Below are positions 43,586 through 52,264 of a DNA stretch of 64,000 nt, in pieces. Source of the stretch: Microbacterium invictum (lineage in GTDB: Bacteria; Actinomycetota; Actinomycetes; Actinomycetales; Microbacteriaceae). A program made the translations under genes and the position numbers. Location of the stretch: the NCBI RefSeq assembly GCF_014197265.1, contig NZ_JACIFH010000001.1, positions 1,674,001-1,738,000 on the forward strand. Direction: 5' to 3'. Position 1 is the first letter of the stretch, and every line of letters starts with the position of its first letter. The notes under the pieces were generated by a model that saw nothing but the letters and a program-made list of their open reading frames with translations, ran no database searches and had not been told where the DNA came from.

Positions 43586-44416
43586 TCAGTCCAGGAAGAG
43601 AGCCCGCAGCCGCTTCGTCGTGAAGACGAGCCCGATGGCGATCATCACGACGTAGTAGAGGACGTGCCAGAGCATGTCGGAACTGAGGATCCCCGTGGTG
43701 AGGCCGCGGATCAGCTCCACACCGTGCCACAGCGGGAACGCCATGACGATCGCCTGCACCGCCTCGGGGTACACGGTGATCGGGTAGAAGGTGGCGGAGA
43801 ACAGGAACATCGGCAGCAGCACGAAGTTGATCCAGTCCATGTGCTGGAACGTCTTCATGTAGCTGGTCACCGCCATGCCGAGGCTGGCGAACCCGAAGGC
43901 GATCAACAGGACCGCCGGGATCGCCAGGATCGCGGTGGGCGCGAGGTTGAGCCCGAGGATCTGCATGATGATCATGAAGCCGGTCGCGTAGAGCAGGCCG
44001 CGCAGCAGCGCGTAGAGGATCTCACCCAGGGCGACATCGAGCGGGCCGAGCGAGGTCGAGAGCATGCCTTCGTAGAGCTTGCCGTAGTTGAGCTTGAAGA
44101 AGACGTTCCAGGTGGAGTCGTAGATCGCGCCGTTCATCGCCGACACCGCCAGCAGCGCCGGGGCGATGAACGCGGCGTAGGGCACCTCGACGCCCTGCGA
44201 GGTCTGGACGTCGCCGACGAGCGCCCCGAGCCCGATCCCCATGGATGCCAGGTAGAAGACCGGCTCGAAGAATCCCGACAGCACGACGATCCAGCTCGAC
44301 GAGCGCGCGGCGATGAGGCCGCGCTGCACGACGGCGCCGGGGTTGCCCGCCCAGAGCGCGCGCACCCCGCCGCGCCGCGCGGCATCGGTGCCCGCGTCAC
44401 TGTGCACGACGGTCAC
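43586..44416 (-). CDS. ABC-2 type transporter permease (second permease of exporter)
   Basis: A 276-residue ABC-2 permease with about six helices, resembling NodJ/DrrB-type drug or polysaccharide exporters. SWIVVLSGFFEPVFYLASMGIG begins the membrane part; FLFSATFYPITVYPEAVQ and FPLWHGVELIRGL form the family signature. GTG 44416 overlaps the stop of the preceding permease (GTGA). With the other permease and the ATPase it forms a three-gene exporter operon. Exported compound unknown. Confidence 0.88.
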   Translation of the reverse strand: MTVVHSDAGTDAARRGGVRALWAGNPGAVVQRGLIAARSSSWIVVLSGFFEPVFYLASMGIGLGALVGDVQTSQGVEVPYAAFIAPALLAVSAMNGAIYDSTWNVFFKLNYGKLYEGMLSTSLGPLDVALGEILYALLRGLLYATGFMIIMQILGLNLAPTAILAIPAVLLIAFGFASLGMAVTSYMKTFQHMDWINFVLLPMFLFSATFYPITVYPEAVQAIVMAFPLWHGVELIRGLTTGILSSDMLWHVLYYVVMIAIGLVFTTKRLRALFLD

Positions 44417-45269
44417 TTCGCGAGCCTCTCGACGAACACGCGCCGGCCCCACACGTAGCCGGCCACGCACAGCACCACCAGGTAGCCGATGTGCACGGCG
44501 ATCATCCCCGGCGCGACCGGGGCACCGTACGTGGCGACGCGGCCGAGTTCGGCGCCGTGCCAGAGCGGCGAGATCCATCCGATCCACTGCAGCCATGCCG
44601 GCAGGGTGTCAAGCGGGTAGAACGTGCCCGAGAACAGGAACATCGGCATGAAGACGAACCGCTGCACGAGCGCGAACTGGCCCCTGTCGTCTTCGATCGA
44701 CCCGGCGTATGCCATCAGCGGAATGCCGAACGCGAGCCCGGCTGCGACGCCGGCGAAGATCGACAGCCAGCCGGTCTCGGGGTGCGGGACGGCGCCGAAG
44801 ATCCAGATGAACACGTAGTACGCGGCGACCGCGACCACCATGCGCGCGGCCGCCCCGGCGATCACGCCGTTCGCGATCTGCGGGCTCGACAGCGCCGATG
44901 CGTTGAACCCGTAGAAGTACCGGCGCCACTTGAATCCGGCCATGACCGGGTAGGTCATCTCCTCCGACGCGACCGAGATGGCCGCGGTCACCAGCAGCGC
45001 CGGCGCAACGAACACCAGGTATGAGACCTGCACGCCACGGTCGTCGATGGGCGCGTCGATGAGCATCGCCAGACCGATGCCCAAGCCGAGCAGATAGATG
45101 ATCGGCTGCCCGAGCGCGCCGACGATGATCGTCCAGCCGTAGGCGCGCATCGCGCGGACCCAGTGCTCGGTGACGTACCAGCTGCCGAACCGGCGCGGCT
45201 TGCGGCCCCATTCGAGGGCCTCGGCGCGCAGCTCGTCGATCGACGGGTGCGCGGTGAGGGCGTCGGCGC

Positions 45270-45273
<4 letters not shown>
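44413..45273 (-). CDS. ABC-2 type transporter permease (first permease of exporter)
   Basis: A 286-residue ABC-2 permease, related to its neighbour. MPMFLFSGTFYPLDTLPAWL and ISPLWHGAELGR carry the family signature; about 60 cytosolic residues precede the first helix. ATG 45273 overlaps the ATPase stop (ATGA). The two permeases probably form a heterodimer, as genes for NodJ-like partners usually occur singly and a pair suggests distinct halves. Confidence 0.88.
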
Positions 45274-46211
<938 letters not shown>

Positions 46212-46217
46212 CGGACT

Positions 46218-46284
46218 ACCCTAACGCCACCCACCGAACGTCAACACGGGTTGACGGGTGTCGTGGACGTCAACTACGGTTGAC
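46218..46284. promoter_or_regulatory. Divergent promoters with two GTCAAC-N4-GTTGAC operators
   Basis: Operator 1 is CGTCAACACGGGTTGACG (46239-46256) and operator 2 is GTCAACTACGGTTGAC (46269-46284); both are perfect palindromes with 4-bp centres, 29 bp apart centre to centre. For the regulator gene, -35 TTGACG (46251-46256) lies in operator 1 and -10 TACGGT (46275-46280) in operator 2, 18 bp apart. For the minus-strand ATPase gene, -35 TTGACG also lies in operator 1 and -10 TAGGGT is at 46223-46218. Binding would block both promoters. Confidence 0.75.
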
Positions 46285-46288
46285 CCCC

Positions 46289-46498
46289 ATGAGCGACGTG
46301 CACACGATGACCGGCGCCGCTGAAGCCGAGCCGCCGCTGCGGCTGATCCAGGAGATCACCCGGCAGCGCCGCGAACTCGAGCGCGCCGAGGAGGCCGCCG
46401 TGCGCCGCGCCCGCGTCGCCGGGTACTCCTGGCAGGCGATCGCGATGTCGCTGGGCGTGAGCAAGCAGGCGGTCCACAAGAAATACGGGCGAAGATAG
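46289..46498 (+). CDS. Small helix-turn-helix regulator
   Basis: A 69-residue protein. An Arg/Glu-rich helix (LIQEITRQRRELERAEEAAV) is followed by a clear HTH, GYSWQAIAMSLGVSKQAVHK, at residues 44-63. It resembles small actinobacterial HTH proteins that I cannot tie to a characterised member. ATG 46289 is chosen because the operator and -10 element end at 46284. It is divergent from an ABC-2 exporter and 74 bp before an ABC exporter; two palindromic sites lie over its promoter, so it is most simply an autorepressor and repressor of the exporters. Confidence 0.75.
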   Translation: MSDVHTMTGAAEAEPPLRLIQEITRQRRELERAEEAAVRRARVAGYSWQAIAMSLGVSKQAVHKKYGRR

Positions 46499-46572
46499 AT
46501 CCCGGAGGCGCCTGCGCCCGGCATCCACTCTCCCGGCATCCATCCCCACCCCCGACTCTCGAGGACGCACAC

Positions 46573-48474
46573 ATGTCTACCGACACCGGCCGCCGCCGCG
46601 GCCTCCGCCGTCGCCGCACCGACGATGGCCCGCGCGCGTCGCTGCGACAGCTGCTGCCGTTCCTGTTCGAGCACACCGGGGTGCTCGTCGTCGTCACGGT
46701 GCTCAGCATCCTCGGCGCCCTGGCCACGCTCGGTCAGCCACTCGTCGTCGGCCAGCTGATCGAACGCGTGCAGTCCGCGACCCCGCTCGGCTGGCTCGTC
46801 TGGGCCCTGGTCGTCCTCGTCGTGCTGTCCTCTGTCATCAGCGGCTATCAGCACTACCTGCTGCAGCGCACCGGTACGGCGATCGTGTTCTCGAGCCGCC
46901 GGCGTCTGATCGCGCGTCTGCTGCATCTGCCGGTGCAGGAGTATGACGCGCGGCGCACCGGCGATCTCGTCTCGCGGGTGGGCACCGACACGACGCTGCT
47001 CTATGCCGTCCTCACCCAGGGACTCGCCGATTCGCTGGGAAACGTCCTGCTGTTCGTCGGCGCGATCATCGCGATGCTCGTCATCGACCCGGTCCTGCTG
47101 CTGCTGATCCTCATCGTGATCGGTGTGTCCGTCGCCGTCGTGGGCGCGCTCAGCGGGCGCATCCGCTCAGCGACCGAGGTGCAGCAGGAGCAGGTGGGCC
47201 ATCTCGCCTCCGGGGTCGAGCGCGCCATCGGCTCGGTCCGCACGATCCGTGCGGCCGGTGCCGCGGAACGCGAGCGCGCCTCGATCGAGGGCACCGCCGG
47301 GGCCGCCTACGAGGCCGGAGTGAAGGTCGCGAAGGCCTCCGCGCTCGTCGTCCCGGTCGCCGGCGTCGCGATGCAGCTCTCCCTGCTGGTGGTGCTGGGT
47401 GTGGGCGGCTTCCGCGTGGCATCCGGAGCGATCACGATCGCCGAGCTCGTGACGTTCGTGATGTTCCTGTTCTTCCTCATCGCGCCGCTCGGCTCGTTCT
47501 TCGGCGCGATCACCTCGGTGAACCAGGCGCTGGGCGCCCTCGGGCGCATTCAGGAGGTCCTCGACCTGCCGACCGAGACGCAGGCCGACGCCGAGATCGC
47601 GGCATCCATCGCCTCGCGCGCGGCGATCGCCGCCGACGTTCCGGCCGCTGCCGGGTCGGCGGCGATCGAGTTCCGCGACGTGCACTTCTCGTATCCGGAT
47701 GCCGTGGTCGCGGCGCGCCGCACCGCGGAGACCGAGGCGCTCAAGACGCTCACCGAGGTGCACGCCGACGCCATCGATGTCGAGGATGCCGAGGGCGGCG
47801 TGCTGCGTGGCGTGTCGTTCCGGGTGCCGCGCGGTGCGCGCGTCGCGCTGGTCGGGCCCTCGGGAGCCGGCAAGTCGACCACGCTCGCCCTGATCGAGCG
47901 GTTCTACGACCCGGCATCCGGTGCCGTGCTGCTCGACGGCGAGGACGTCCGCACGCTCGACCGCGGTGTGCTGCGCGCGCAGCTCGGCTACGTCGAGCAG
48001 GATGCGCCGACCCTGGCCGGCACGATCGCCGACAACCTGCGGCTGGCGTCGCCGCTTGCGTCGGATGAGGACTGCGAGCGCGTGCTGCGCGCCGTGAACC
48101 TCGGCGATGTGCTCGAACGCAGCCCCCTGGGCCTGCAGGCACCGGTCGGCGAGGCGGGTGTCATGCTCTCGGGCGGCGAGCGCCAGCGGCTCGCGATCGC
48201 GCGGGCGCTGCTGGCGGCTCCCCCGATCCTGCTGCTCGACGAGTCGACCTCGTCGCTCGACGGACTCAACGAGCAGCGCATGCGCGACGCGATCGACGCC
48301 GTGGCGACCGGCCGCACGCTCATCGTGATCGCTCACCGCCTGTCGACGGTCGTCGACAGCGACCTCATCGTGGTGCTCGACCACGGCGAGGTCGTGGGGC
48401 AGGGCACGCACGCCGAGCTCGTGGCATCGGTGCCGCTGTACCGCGACCTGGCGGCCCGGCAGCTCTTGGTGTGA
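46573..48474 (+). CDS. ABC exporter, fused membrane and ATPase domains
   Basis: A 633-residue half-transporter of the MsbA/LmrA type. Six helices span about residues 30-310. The ATPase domain has Walker A VGPSGAGKSTT near residue 428, signature MLSGGERQRLAIARALL, Walker B PILLLDESTSSLDG and the H-loop IVIAHRLSTV. A 32-residue insert rich in Ala and Glu lies between the first ATPase strand (FSYPDA, residue 377) and GVLRGVSF; other exporters have only a few residues there. It would work as a homodimer unless a partner exists elsewhere. Probably co-transcribed with the small HTH gene. Confidence 0.9.
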   Translation: MSTDTGRRRGLRRRRTDDGPRASLRQLLPFLFEHTGVLVVVTVLSILGALATLGQPLVVGQLIERVQSATPLGWLVWALVVLVVLSSVISGYQHYLLQRTGTAIVFSSRRRLIARLLHLPVQEYDARRTGDLVSRVGTDTTLLYAVLTQGLADSLGNVLLFVGAIIAMLVIDPVLLLLILIVIGVSVAVVGALSGRIRSATEVQQEQVGHLASGVERAIGSVRTIRAAGAAERERASIEGTAGAAYEAGVKVAKASALVVPVAGVAMQLSLLVVLGVGGFRVASGAITIAELVTFVMFLFFLIAPLGSFFGAITSVNQALGALGRIQEVLDLPTETQADAEIAASIASRAAIAADVPAAAGSAAIEFRDVHFSYPDAVVAARRTAETEALKTLTEVHADAIDVEDAEGGVLRGVSFRVPRGARVALVGPSGAGKSTTLALIERFYDPASGAVLLDGEDVRTLDRGVLRAQLGYVEQDAPTLAGTIADNLRLASPLASDEDCERVLRAVNLGDVLERSPLGLQAPVGEAGVMLSGGERQRLAIARALLAAPPILLLDESTSSLDGLNEQRMRDAIDAVATGRTLIVIAHRLSTVVDSDLIVVLDHGEVVGQGTHAELVASVPLYRDLAARQLLV

Positions 48475-48520
48475 AACGGACCCCACCGCCGAGACGCCCA
48501 CTCTTTCTCTCTCGCGCCGA

Positions 48521-48647
48521 GATGGCCAGTCTCGCTGCGAGATGGCCAGTCTCGCTGCGAGATGGCCAGTCTCGCTGCGAGATGGCCAGTCTCGCTGCGA
48601 GATGGCCAGTCTCGCTGCGAGATGGCCAGTCTCGCTGCGAGATGGCC
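48521..48647 (+). repeat. 20-bp tandem array A (6 full units plus partial)
   Basis: GATGGCCAGTCTCGCTGCGA repeated six times without a mismatch (48521-48640), then a partial unit GATGGCC. It begins 47 bp after the ABC exporter stop. No spacers. The unit shares GAG(A/G)TGGCC with the reverse strand of array B. Confidence 0.95.
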
Positions 48648-48648
48648 G

Positions 48649-48748
48649 GCCACCTCGGCGCGCGGGAGGCCACCTCGGCGCGCGGGAGGCCACCTCGGCG
48701 CGCGGGAAGCCACCTCGGCGCGCGGGAAGCCACCTCGGCGCGCGGGAG
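48649..48748 (-). repeat. 20-bp tandem array B (5 units), opposed to array A
   Basis: Five units of GCCACCTCGGCGCGCGGGAG with A/G variation at the last base. On the minus strand the unit carries GAGGTGGCC, the counterpart of GAGATGGCC in array A. The two arrays meet at GAGATGGCCGGCCACCTC (48639-48656), a near-perfect palindrome. The 52 bp from 48749 to the pckG stop show nothing further. Confidence 0.93.
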
Positions 48749-48800
48749 GCTGCAGCGGGAACGGTCAGGCCGGCCAGGCGGGGGCGTGGAAGGCCCGGAC

Positions 48801-50821: not shown

Positions 50822-52264
50822 ATGGCTCCCTCGTCCCTGGAACTGTCCACGCTCGGCCATCGGATCCGTCATCACCGCACTGCGCACGGGTACACCCTCG
50901 ATGAGCTCGGTGGGATCGTGGGCGTCGCGGGCAGCCAGCTGAGCCTGATCGAGAACGGCAAGCGCGAGCCGAAGCTGTCGCTGCTGCAGGCCATCGCGCA
51001 CGCCACCGGGACCGATGTCACCGACCTGCTGTCGGCCGAGCCGCCGAACCGCCGCGCCGCCCTCGAACTCGAACTCGAGCGGGCGCAGGCGAGCCCGGTG
51101 TTCCGGCGGATGGGCGTCGAGCCGGTGCGGGTGACCAAGACGATGAGCGACGAGACGATCGAGTCGATCCTGGGGCTGCACCGCGAGCTGCTGCGCCGCG
51201 AGCGCGAGGCCATCGCGACGCCCGAAGAGGCGCGCCGCGCCAATACCGAACTGCGACTGCGGATGCGGGAGCGCGGCAACTACCTCGGCGACATCGAGAA
51301 GCTCGCCGAGAAGCAGCTCAAGGCGGCCGGGCACGTGTCAGGGGCGCTCACGCACCGGACGGTGAGCATCATGGCCTCCCAGCTCGGCTTCGAGCTGCTG
51401 TACGTCAACGACCTGCCGCATTCGGCGCGCTCGGTCACCGATCTCGAGAACGGCCGGATCTACCTGCCCCCGGCATCCATCCCCGGCGGACACGGACTGC
51501 GATCGATGGCGCTGCAGGCGATGGCGCACCGGCTGCTCGGCCACACTCCGCCCACCGACTACGCCGACTTCCTGCAACAACGGCTCGAGATCAACTACTA
51601 CGCCGCGTGCTGCCTCATGCCCGAAACCGCGTCGGTCGCCTTTCTCACGCAGGCCAAGAAGGATCGCAACCTCGCCGTCGAGGACTTCCGCGACGCGTTC
51701 GGGGTCACCCATGAAGCTGCCGGCATGCGGATGACGAACCTGCTGACCGAGCATTTCGGCATCAAGCTGCACTTCCTGCGCGTGGACGGCACGGGCGCGA
51801 TCAGCCGCGTGTACGAGAACGACGAGCTGCCGCTGCCGATGGACGTCACCGGCGCCGTCGAAGGCCAGGTCGTGTGCCGCAGCTTCGCGGCACGGTCGGC
51901 GTTCGGACAGCAGAACCGCACCACCGAGCACTACCAGTACACCGACACCCCGGCGGGGACCTTCTGGTGCTCGAGCCAGACCGGGTCGACCGCCGAGGGC
52001 GAGTTCTCGATCACCGTCGGGGTGCCTTTCGACGACGCCCGCTGGTGGCGGGGCCGCGAGACGCAGAAGCGCGCCGCCTCGACCTGCCCGGACGAGTCGT
52101 GCTGCCGGCGCCCCGACAGCGCGCTGACCAGCCGGTGGGAGGGCAAGGCGTGGCCGAGCGCGCGCGTGCACATGCAGATGTTCACGCCGCTCCCCCGCGG
52201 AGCCTTCCCGGGGGTCGACGACGGTGAGGTCTACACGTTCCTGGAGCGGCACGCGGCCCGCTGA
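50822..52264 (+). CDS. RamB/PrpR-type transcriptional regulator (XRE HTH + ImmA/IrrE-like)
   Basis: A 480-residue regulator. HTH at residues 10-65 (LGHRIRHHRTAHGYTLDELG, then LSLIENGKREPKLSLL). The middle (residues 160-290) is the ImmA/IrrE-like domain without a clear HExxH. The C-terminal third is the short-chain fatty acyl regulator domain, with three cysteines in CPDESCC plus Cys at about 341 and 365; M. tuberculosis PrpR carries a [4Fe-4S] cluster there. RamB and PrpR control acetate and propionate genes, so the divergent pckG is a likely target. TATGCT lies 6 nt before ATG 50822. Confidence 0.88.
   Translation: MAPSSLELSTLGHRIRHHRTAHGYTLDELGGIVGVAGSQLSLIENGKREPKLSLLQAIAHATGTDVTDLLSAEPPNRRAALELELERAQASPVFRRMGVEPVRVTKTMSDETIESILGLHRELLRREREAIATPEEARRANTELRLRMRERGNYLGDIEKLAEKQLKAAGHVSGALTHRTVSIMASQLGFELLYVNDLPHSARSVTDLENGRIYLPPASIPGGHGLRSMALQAMAHRLLGHTPPTDYADFLQQRLEINYYAACCLMPETASVAFLTQAKKDRNLAVEDFRDAFGVTHEAAGMRMTNLLTEHFGIKLHFLRVDGTGAISRVYENDELPLPMDVTGAVEGQVVCRSFAARSAFGQQNRTTEHYQYTDTPAGTFWCSSQTGSTAEGEFSITVGVPFDDARWWRGRETQKRAASTCPDESCCRRPDSALTSRWEGKAWPSARVHMQMFTPLPRGAFPGVDDGEVYTFLERHAAR

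Follow-up and report, generated by a model that had tools for sequence, protein, structure and literature searches.

Two perfect copies of the palindrome GTCAAC-N4-GTTGAC lie between divergently transcribed exporter genes in a 64,000-nucleotide stretch of the Microbacterium invictum genome (contig NZ_JACIFH010000001.1, positions 1,674,001 to 1,738,000 of the forward strand, referred to here as the window). They stand in front of a gene for a helix-turn-helix (HTH) protein of only 69 residues, which raises the question of which protein reads these sites and which genes are controlled through them. The answer that we consider highly probable is that the 69-residue protein is a dimeric autorepressor, a free-standing ClpC2-type HTH module acting on a pair of N4 operators embedded in its own promoter, with probable read-through into the following msbA-like exporter gene. 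A dimer would bind both copies of the palindrome, which would form the -35 and the -10 region of this promoter, and bound repressor and RNA polymerase would be mutually exclusive on it. The elements on which this reading is based are as follows.

46240-46255, no strand: operator 1, an exact GTCAAC-N4-GTTGAC (GTCAACACGGGTTGAC), whose right arm provides the proposed -35 of the HTH promoter
46269-46284, no strand: operator 2, an exact GTCAAC-N4-GTTGAC (GTCAACTACGGTTGAC), whose centre contains the proposed -10
46251-46256, plus strand: proposed -35 of the HTH promoter, TTGACG, read from the sequence, with a geometry conserved in 78 of 88 distinct loci
46275-46280, plus strand: proposed -10 of the HTH promoter, TACGGT, read from the sequence
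46289..46498, plus strand: HTH gene, 69 residues from ATG by translation of the open reading frame (ORF), a stand-alone relative of the N-terminal HTH of ClpC2; predicted are a long helix at residues 16-43 and the HTH helices at 48-55 and 59-67

The reading frame of the HTH gene also offers an alternative TTG start 9 bases upstream, which would give a protein of 72 residues.

The palindromes and their association with the HTH gene

The operator centres lie at 46247.5 and 46276.5, i.e. 29 bp apart. Exact copies of the palindrome occur twice in the whole 3,580,260-bp genome, both at this locus, as opposed to 0.078 copies expected genome-wide with independent bases at the G+C content of the window (0.697), so that palindromes arising by chance are ruled out. 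With up to two mismatches the window contains five sites against a mean of 1.91 in shuffled sequences, and 5 of 100 shuffles reach five; therefore the exact pair alone is remarkable. A dispersed regulon in this genome is likewise ruled out, because there is no other exact site and the two one-mismatch sites elsewhere are situated within ORFs of 353 and 441 codons. The sequence and the genome scan thereby bear out the positions and the exactness of the pair as given in the initial annotation, a model's reading of the DNA made without database searches.

In order to see whether the sites accompany the gene, homologues of the HTH protein were collected from 58 genomes of relatives, 29 of which contain one (own genome included), and from named genomes, for which the best 80 of 587 relatives were used (595 stretches matched the pattern). 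A pair was counted if two sites with at most two mismatches each were found 24-32 bp apart upstream of the HTH gene. By this measure a pair is present at 91 of 110 homologue loci, 27 of the 30 from relatives (own included) and 64 of the 80 from named genomes, bearing in mind that some loci are the same place (e.g. L023 and L107), that the 110 are not independent genomes, and that some genomes occur in several of the searches. The sites in the paired loci are separated by 28 bp (46 loci), 29 bp (25), 27 bp (19) or 30 bp (1). At two divergent homologues, L031 and L034, the pairs have an altered left arm, AGCAAC-N4-GTTGAC, at a separation of 27-28 bp, which possibly represents a second specificity class.

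The association was also examined in the reverse direction by scanning genomes for the perfect pair without using the protein as a starting point. Among 394 genomes of the class, 53 contain the perfect pair, and the reversed pattern gave no match among the matches listed. Thirty loci from the 53 genomes with the pair were inspected (own included), and the HTH gene adjoins the pair at all 30, recognised by motif scan at 29 and by its reading frames at one (L235, where a Clp-N-like frame follows the HTH gene). Single perfect palindromes number 30 in the 58 relatives, and 26 of them are located upstream of an HTH homologue, as judged by comparing coordinates by eye. Stray palindromes were seen in G018 (contig 9), G032 and G040. 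In a viral collection, four contigs carry perfect pairs, with no HTH gene of this family adjoining by motif. On the viral contigs L244 and L246 the perfect palindrome forms arrays with a 30-bp step for three of four copies, and on L247 there are five perfect copies at a 27-bp step and a pair elsewhere.

Within the genus, the msbA-like gene allows the regulator and the exporter to be separated. It was matched in 33 of the 58 genomes, 32 of them of the same genus (own included); 30 loci were inspected and 29 judged, L196 being omitted as truncated. Where an HTH gene stands in front of msbA the pair is present at 14 of 14 loci, as opposed to 0 of 15 loci with a site (at most two mismatches, within 700 bp) where there is no HTH gene in front; therefore, the operators are associated with the regulator gene and not with the exporter. 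Three of these 15 genomes (G002, G020 and G033) possess an HTH homologue elsewhere with its own pair, and their msbA lacks operators. Two of the three could be paralogues: that of G002, with 39% identity and two mismatches in each site, and that of G020, with 49% identity. Taken with the 91 of 110 homologue loci and the 30 of 30 loci of the reverse scan, this agrees with the assignment of the palindromes to the small HTH protein made at the outset.

A proposed promoter embedded in the operator pair

The architecture was compared in 88 distinct loci, that is the 91 paired loci minus three with identical contexts. Both sites are kept as palindromes across this set, TA-rich bases occupy the centre of site 2, and TANNNT occurs within site 2 in 78 of the 88, as expected if operator 2 contains the -10 of the HTH gene, which had been proposed from the window alone. 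The spacer between TTGACN of site 1 and TANNNT of site 2 amounts to 17 bp (47 loci), 18 bp (29), 16 bp (1) or 19 bp (1), and is 18 bp in the window. At an operator distance of 27 bp, the -10 sits one base further into site 2 at 16 of 18 loci, which keeps the promoter spacer constant. From this constancy it would follow that the operator spacing is set at least partly by RNA polymerase. The distance of 29 bp had been taken as a sign of cooperative binding; cooperativity is possible, but the promoter geometry explains the distance, so that cooperativity is not implied and the spacing was rejected as proof of it.

The first in-frame start codon follows 6-7 nt after the -10 in 50 of the 78 loci, as expected of a leaderless mRNA, and the ATG in the window follows after 8 nt, so that the HTH mRNA is likely to be leaderless. 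A strict sigma-70 scan of positions 46150-46650 called no promoter because the hexamers fall under its cut-off. Since the predicted binding would compete with RNA polymerase, repression is expected, and autoregulation by the 69-residue protein is very likely.

Possible control of the neighbouring exporters

The exporter genes on both sides of the intergenic region, together with a proposed promoter element, are arranged as follows.

46573..48474, plus strand: MsbA-like ABC exporter (ABC_membrane and ABC_tran), directly following the HTH gene in the same direction, 74 bp past its stop codon
45270..46211, minus strand: ABC-2 exporter ATPase, DrrA/NodI-like but under the cut-offs of those models, the divergent neighbour
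44413..45282, minus strand: ABC-2 permease 1
43586..44422, minus strand: ABC-2 permease 2
46218-46223, minus strand: proposed -10 of the ABC-2 operon, TAGGGT, 6 nt before the GTG start

The ABC-2 operon thus comprises three genes on the minus strand (46211-43586). The HTH gene had been called the only DNA-binding protein nearby, which holds for the nearest few kb; an XRE/Cro-type HTH regulator is encoded at 50822-52264, 4.3 kb away. Beyond the msbA-like gene, two adjoining arrays, of 6.9 and 5.2 tandemly repeated 20-bp units, occupy 48510-48750, and the gene on their far side is one that we take, by recognition, to be PEPCK-like.

The initial annotation described the locus as a minimal switch over both exporters, with the ABC-2 operon and the MsbA-like gene jointly repressed by the HTH protein through cooperatively bound operators. 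We regard this joint control as possible but doubtful, and its two halves differ in the evidence available. For the msbA side, the gene directly after the HTH gene in the 80 named loci is msbA-like in 35, a broken msbA form in 1 (L102), a Clp-N gene in 12, and neither was detected in 32; these assignments combine tblastn at set thresholds with reading, and the crude ORF caller is error-prone in GC-rich DNA. The short ORF of L102 (497-925, a metagenome-assembled Nesterenkonia genome) looks like an MsbA-like exporter reduced to its two ends, with the middle missing, which would be a broken gene or an assembly fault. Since only 74 bp lie between the HTH gene and msbA in the window and a scan of the window found no terminator-like site between them, read-through from the HTH promoter is likely. 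In the Microbacteriaceae, the regulated transcript would probably continue into the MsbA-like gene, and derepression would lead to more export. Against joint control stand the three same-genus genomes mentioned above, in which the HTH gene is not next to msbA and no operator precedes msbA, and the operator spacing, which is accounted for by the promoter geometry.

In genomes where no HTH gene stands in front, msbA expression probably does not require the HTH promoter. At 11 of the 15 same-genus loci of this kind (L185-L213 range, by eye) the letters TACGGTCG are retained ahead of msbA. Among msbA-linked loci with the HTH gene, 13 of 35 have the same letters as codons for Tyr-Gly-Arg near the C-terminus of the protein, as opposed to 0 of 45 others; the corresponding letters in the window are TACGGGCG. 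The retained TACGGTCG may be a remnant of a lost HTH gene, an msbA promoter, or both.

On the ABC-2 side, 28 bp separate operator 1 from the start codon in the window, and the left arm of this operator offers a possible -35, with a TAGGGT-like element close before the ABC-2 start codon in many relatives as well (judged by eye). However, the spacer from the minus-strand TTGACG (46244-46239) to TAGGGT (46223-46218) would be 15 bp, which is poor, and among the 22 loci in which the divergent ATPase was judged, the distance between operator 1 and the extrapolated start is 36-137 bp at 18 and exceeds 800 bp at the other 4; therefore, the divergent use of operator 1 as a -35 is not conserved. The claim that operator 1 serves both divergent promoters would thus stand for the HTH promoter, and for the ABC-2 promoter it appears to be confined, among the genomes compared, to this one, in which control of the ABC-2 operon by operator 1 is possible. 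In sum, autoregulation, the first part of the proposed switch, is very likely, and exporter control is the weaker claim, as the operators follow the regulator and the ABC-2 -35 is not conserved.

Relation to ClpC2 and other candidate regulators

It had been stated that no characterised regulator with this sequence and operator pair was known. This does not hold for the operators, as mycobacterial ClpC2 represses its own gene at CGTCAAC-n5-GTTGACG, with binding shown by electrophoretic mobility shift assay and supported by reporter data, and cyclomarin A releases this repression (PMC10030653). The ClpC2 operator is duplicated in many of the organisms analysed and overlaps the -35 and -10, and the mRNA is probably leaderless (PMC10030653). 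The window shares with it the duplicated GTCAAC...GTTGAC palindrome over -35 and -10, a likely leaderless mRNA and a homologous HTH. It differs in the operator spacer (N4 as opposed to N5), in the gene that follows, which is an exporter, and in the absence of the Clp-N sensor or decoy domain that ClpC2 bears. The HTH family aligns with the ClpC2 N-terminus with an hhalign probability of 96.8 (pairwise E 2.5e-10, 34 columns) and with the Clp-N part with a probability of 0.4. No Clp_N match was obtained in the 69-residue protein, and in its genome Clp_N occurs in one ORF only, of 851 residues (ClpC-length). The 69-residue protein would accordingly be a free-standing counterpart of the ClpC2 HTH; in other taxa the same regulator is encoded by itself or ahead of a gene resembling a Clp-N decoy.

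A search for fused ClpC2 genes gave 19 loci, 13 of which were examined; exact N5 pairs 28-29 bp apart are present at 8 of 8 fused genes, and an N4 site at none of these. For small Clp-N proteins, 30 loci were inspected and 27 counted, L162-L164 (ClpC length) being left out and weaker matches lying outside the set. An HTH gene is directly upstream in 26 of the 27, with N4 sites paired in 25 and single in 1. These two-gene operons of Actinomycetota therefore have the same small HTH protein and the same N4 operators (paired 25/26) as the window, and differ in that the downstream gene encodes a Clp-N protein instead of an exporter. Across these sets, the same operator logic recurs in three settings: fused, as two genes, and as an HTH gene alone or before an exporter. 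In the literature searched, no description of the stand-alone HTH form or of the two-gene form was found, and nothing usable on the palindrome with a regulator; a small Clp protein, ClpC3, is mentioned beside ClpC2 (PMC10864484, PMC10914731), and may or may not correspond to the two-gene form. We conclude that the locus represents a real and strongly conserved regulator-operator unit, and that the stand-alone, N4, exporter-linked form is what is new relative to ClpC2.

The comparison also bears on which part of ClpC2 binds DNA, a function assigned to the C-terminal domain from the R185A/R189A mutant (PMC10030653). In complementation, clpC2 mRNA was 4.6-fold up with the N-terminal dimer mutant R57A as opposed to 2.0-fold with the C-terminal double mutant, the N-terminal crystal spans residues 4-72, and the terms 'helix-turn-helix' and 'HTH' are absent from the text of that paper (PMC10030653). 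An HTH region in ClpC2 has already been spoken of elsewhere (PMC13284704). The crystallised fragment (8ADA, a chain of 72 residues) matches the HTH profile up to position 58 only, where the recognition helix would begin. Because HTH genes without a Clp-N domain have a nearly identical site, we favour the HTH, not the Clp-N part, as the putative reader of the site.

Several observations weigh against an autorepressor acting at its own sites. Homologues lacking the palindromes had been named as grounds for refutation, and a minority of this kind exists beside the 91 paired loci: 19 of the 110 lack the pair, 12 of them without any site, while L072, L075 and L091 have one upstream site each, L032 one weak site, and L071 (40 bp) as well as L092 and L104 (19 bp) two sites at other spacings. 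In Nonomuraea, 7 of 8 homologue loci are without sites, and the eighth (L114) has the pair. Furthermore, in G034, a relative in which no HTH homologue was found, a perfect palindrome, one of the four not upstream of an HTH homologue, is flanked by a TetR gene and a gene for an FAD-binding enzyme (L131:1501-1516). Such cases could be understood if the palindromes were operators of a regulator encoded elsewhere, e.g. of the TetR type, and the HTH gene merely one of its targets. We consider this very unlikely, given that the HTH gene adjoins the perfect pair at every inspected locus of the reverse scan, that the sites are lost together with the HTH gene within one genus, and that in-vitro binding to the N5 form is established for fused ClpC2, which shares this HTH (PMC10030653).

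The Nonomuraea homologues without a palindrome at the gene (L047, L054, L058, L062, L067, L069 and L083) are 52-58% identical; several of their upstream regions finish in CTACCTTTAG, and L067 contains a similar repeat of it.

RelI (PDB 9SDC), a short actinobacterial HTH protein described as related to the ClpC2 HTH (PMC13284704), is the only clear sequence match in the PDB (profile E 1.4e-08; phmmer E 5.2e-05) and matches across the HTH, which could make the 69-residue protein a RelI-like antitoxin without its toxin and its DNA binding a relic, but this is scarcely credible, because RelI is paired with the toxin RelS, with no evidence of DNA binding and no inverted repeats found upstream of relSI (PMC13284704), as opposed to the highly conserved paired operators of the HTH gene, whose neighbours in the window are ABC exporters, with no RelS or other toxin-like gene adjacent. 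No literature on RelI in Streptomyces was found.

Annotations of the homologues vary between AsnC-like, sigma-like and hypothetical. A sigma-70 region 4 or ECF sigma factor was rejected, as the Pfam scores are below the cut-offs (Sigma70_r4_2 20.2 against 25.7 bits, Sigma70_ECF 14.7 against 21.1) and region 2 is unmatched. AsnC/Lrp, which would call for an AsnC HTH together with a RAM domain, was rejected in view of the length of only 69 residues and the lack of an AsnC match in Pfam or NCBIfam. A known defence system was rejected as well, PADLOC giving none for the HTH protein and generic ATPase matches only for the two transporter proteins scanned. A fold search with the HTH protein gave no match at E ≤ 0.001; the weak, fold-only match to Fis of E. 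coli may reflect merely a common arrangement, and Fis, a global nucleoid factor, recognises other sites. Neither 8ADA nor 9SDC is among the VIA matches listed, which is uninformative about either.

Returning to the favoured autorepressor, further outputs can be considered. In Cryobacterium breve (L072:8368-8439), two perfect GTCAAC-N4-GTTGAC sites 56 bp apart lie downstream of the HTH gene and upstream of a gene of the beta-lactamase family (PF00144), which is a possible second target. A wider reading, speculative and on balance unlikely, is an Actinomycetota-wide stress or drug-peptide circuit in which the operator pair and a mini-HTH repressor are combined with exchangeable outputs. In its exporter form the cell's own ClpC would be the sensor, e.g. 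by turning over the HTH protein, and export would be switched on when ClpC is poisoned. Compatible with it as outputs are a Clp-N decoy, either fused (ClpC2, N5) or as a second gene, an MsbA-type exporter in the Microbacteriaceae, and the beta-lactamase-family hydrolase in one Cryobacterium genome.

For the family, the comparison would link orphan small HTH genes, hitherto labelled AsnC-like, sigma-like or hypothetical, to the ClpC2 response against antibiotics targeting ClpC1, and it predicts the DNA site of these orphan proteins to the base. It also becomes testable which part of ClpC2 binds DNA, as the recognition helix is apparently absent from the crystallised N-terminal fragment. The split between N4 and N5 operators offers a case of protein-operator co-variation, and the promoter-embedded pair a specific sequence tag with which the system can be found in genomes.
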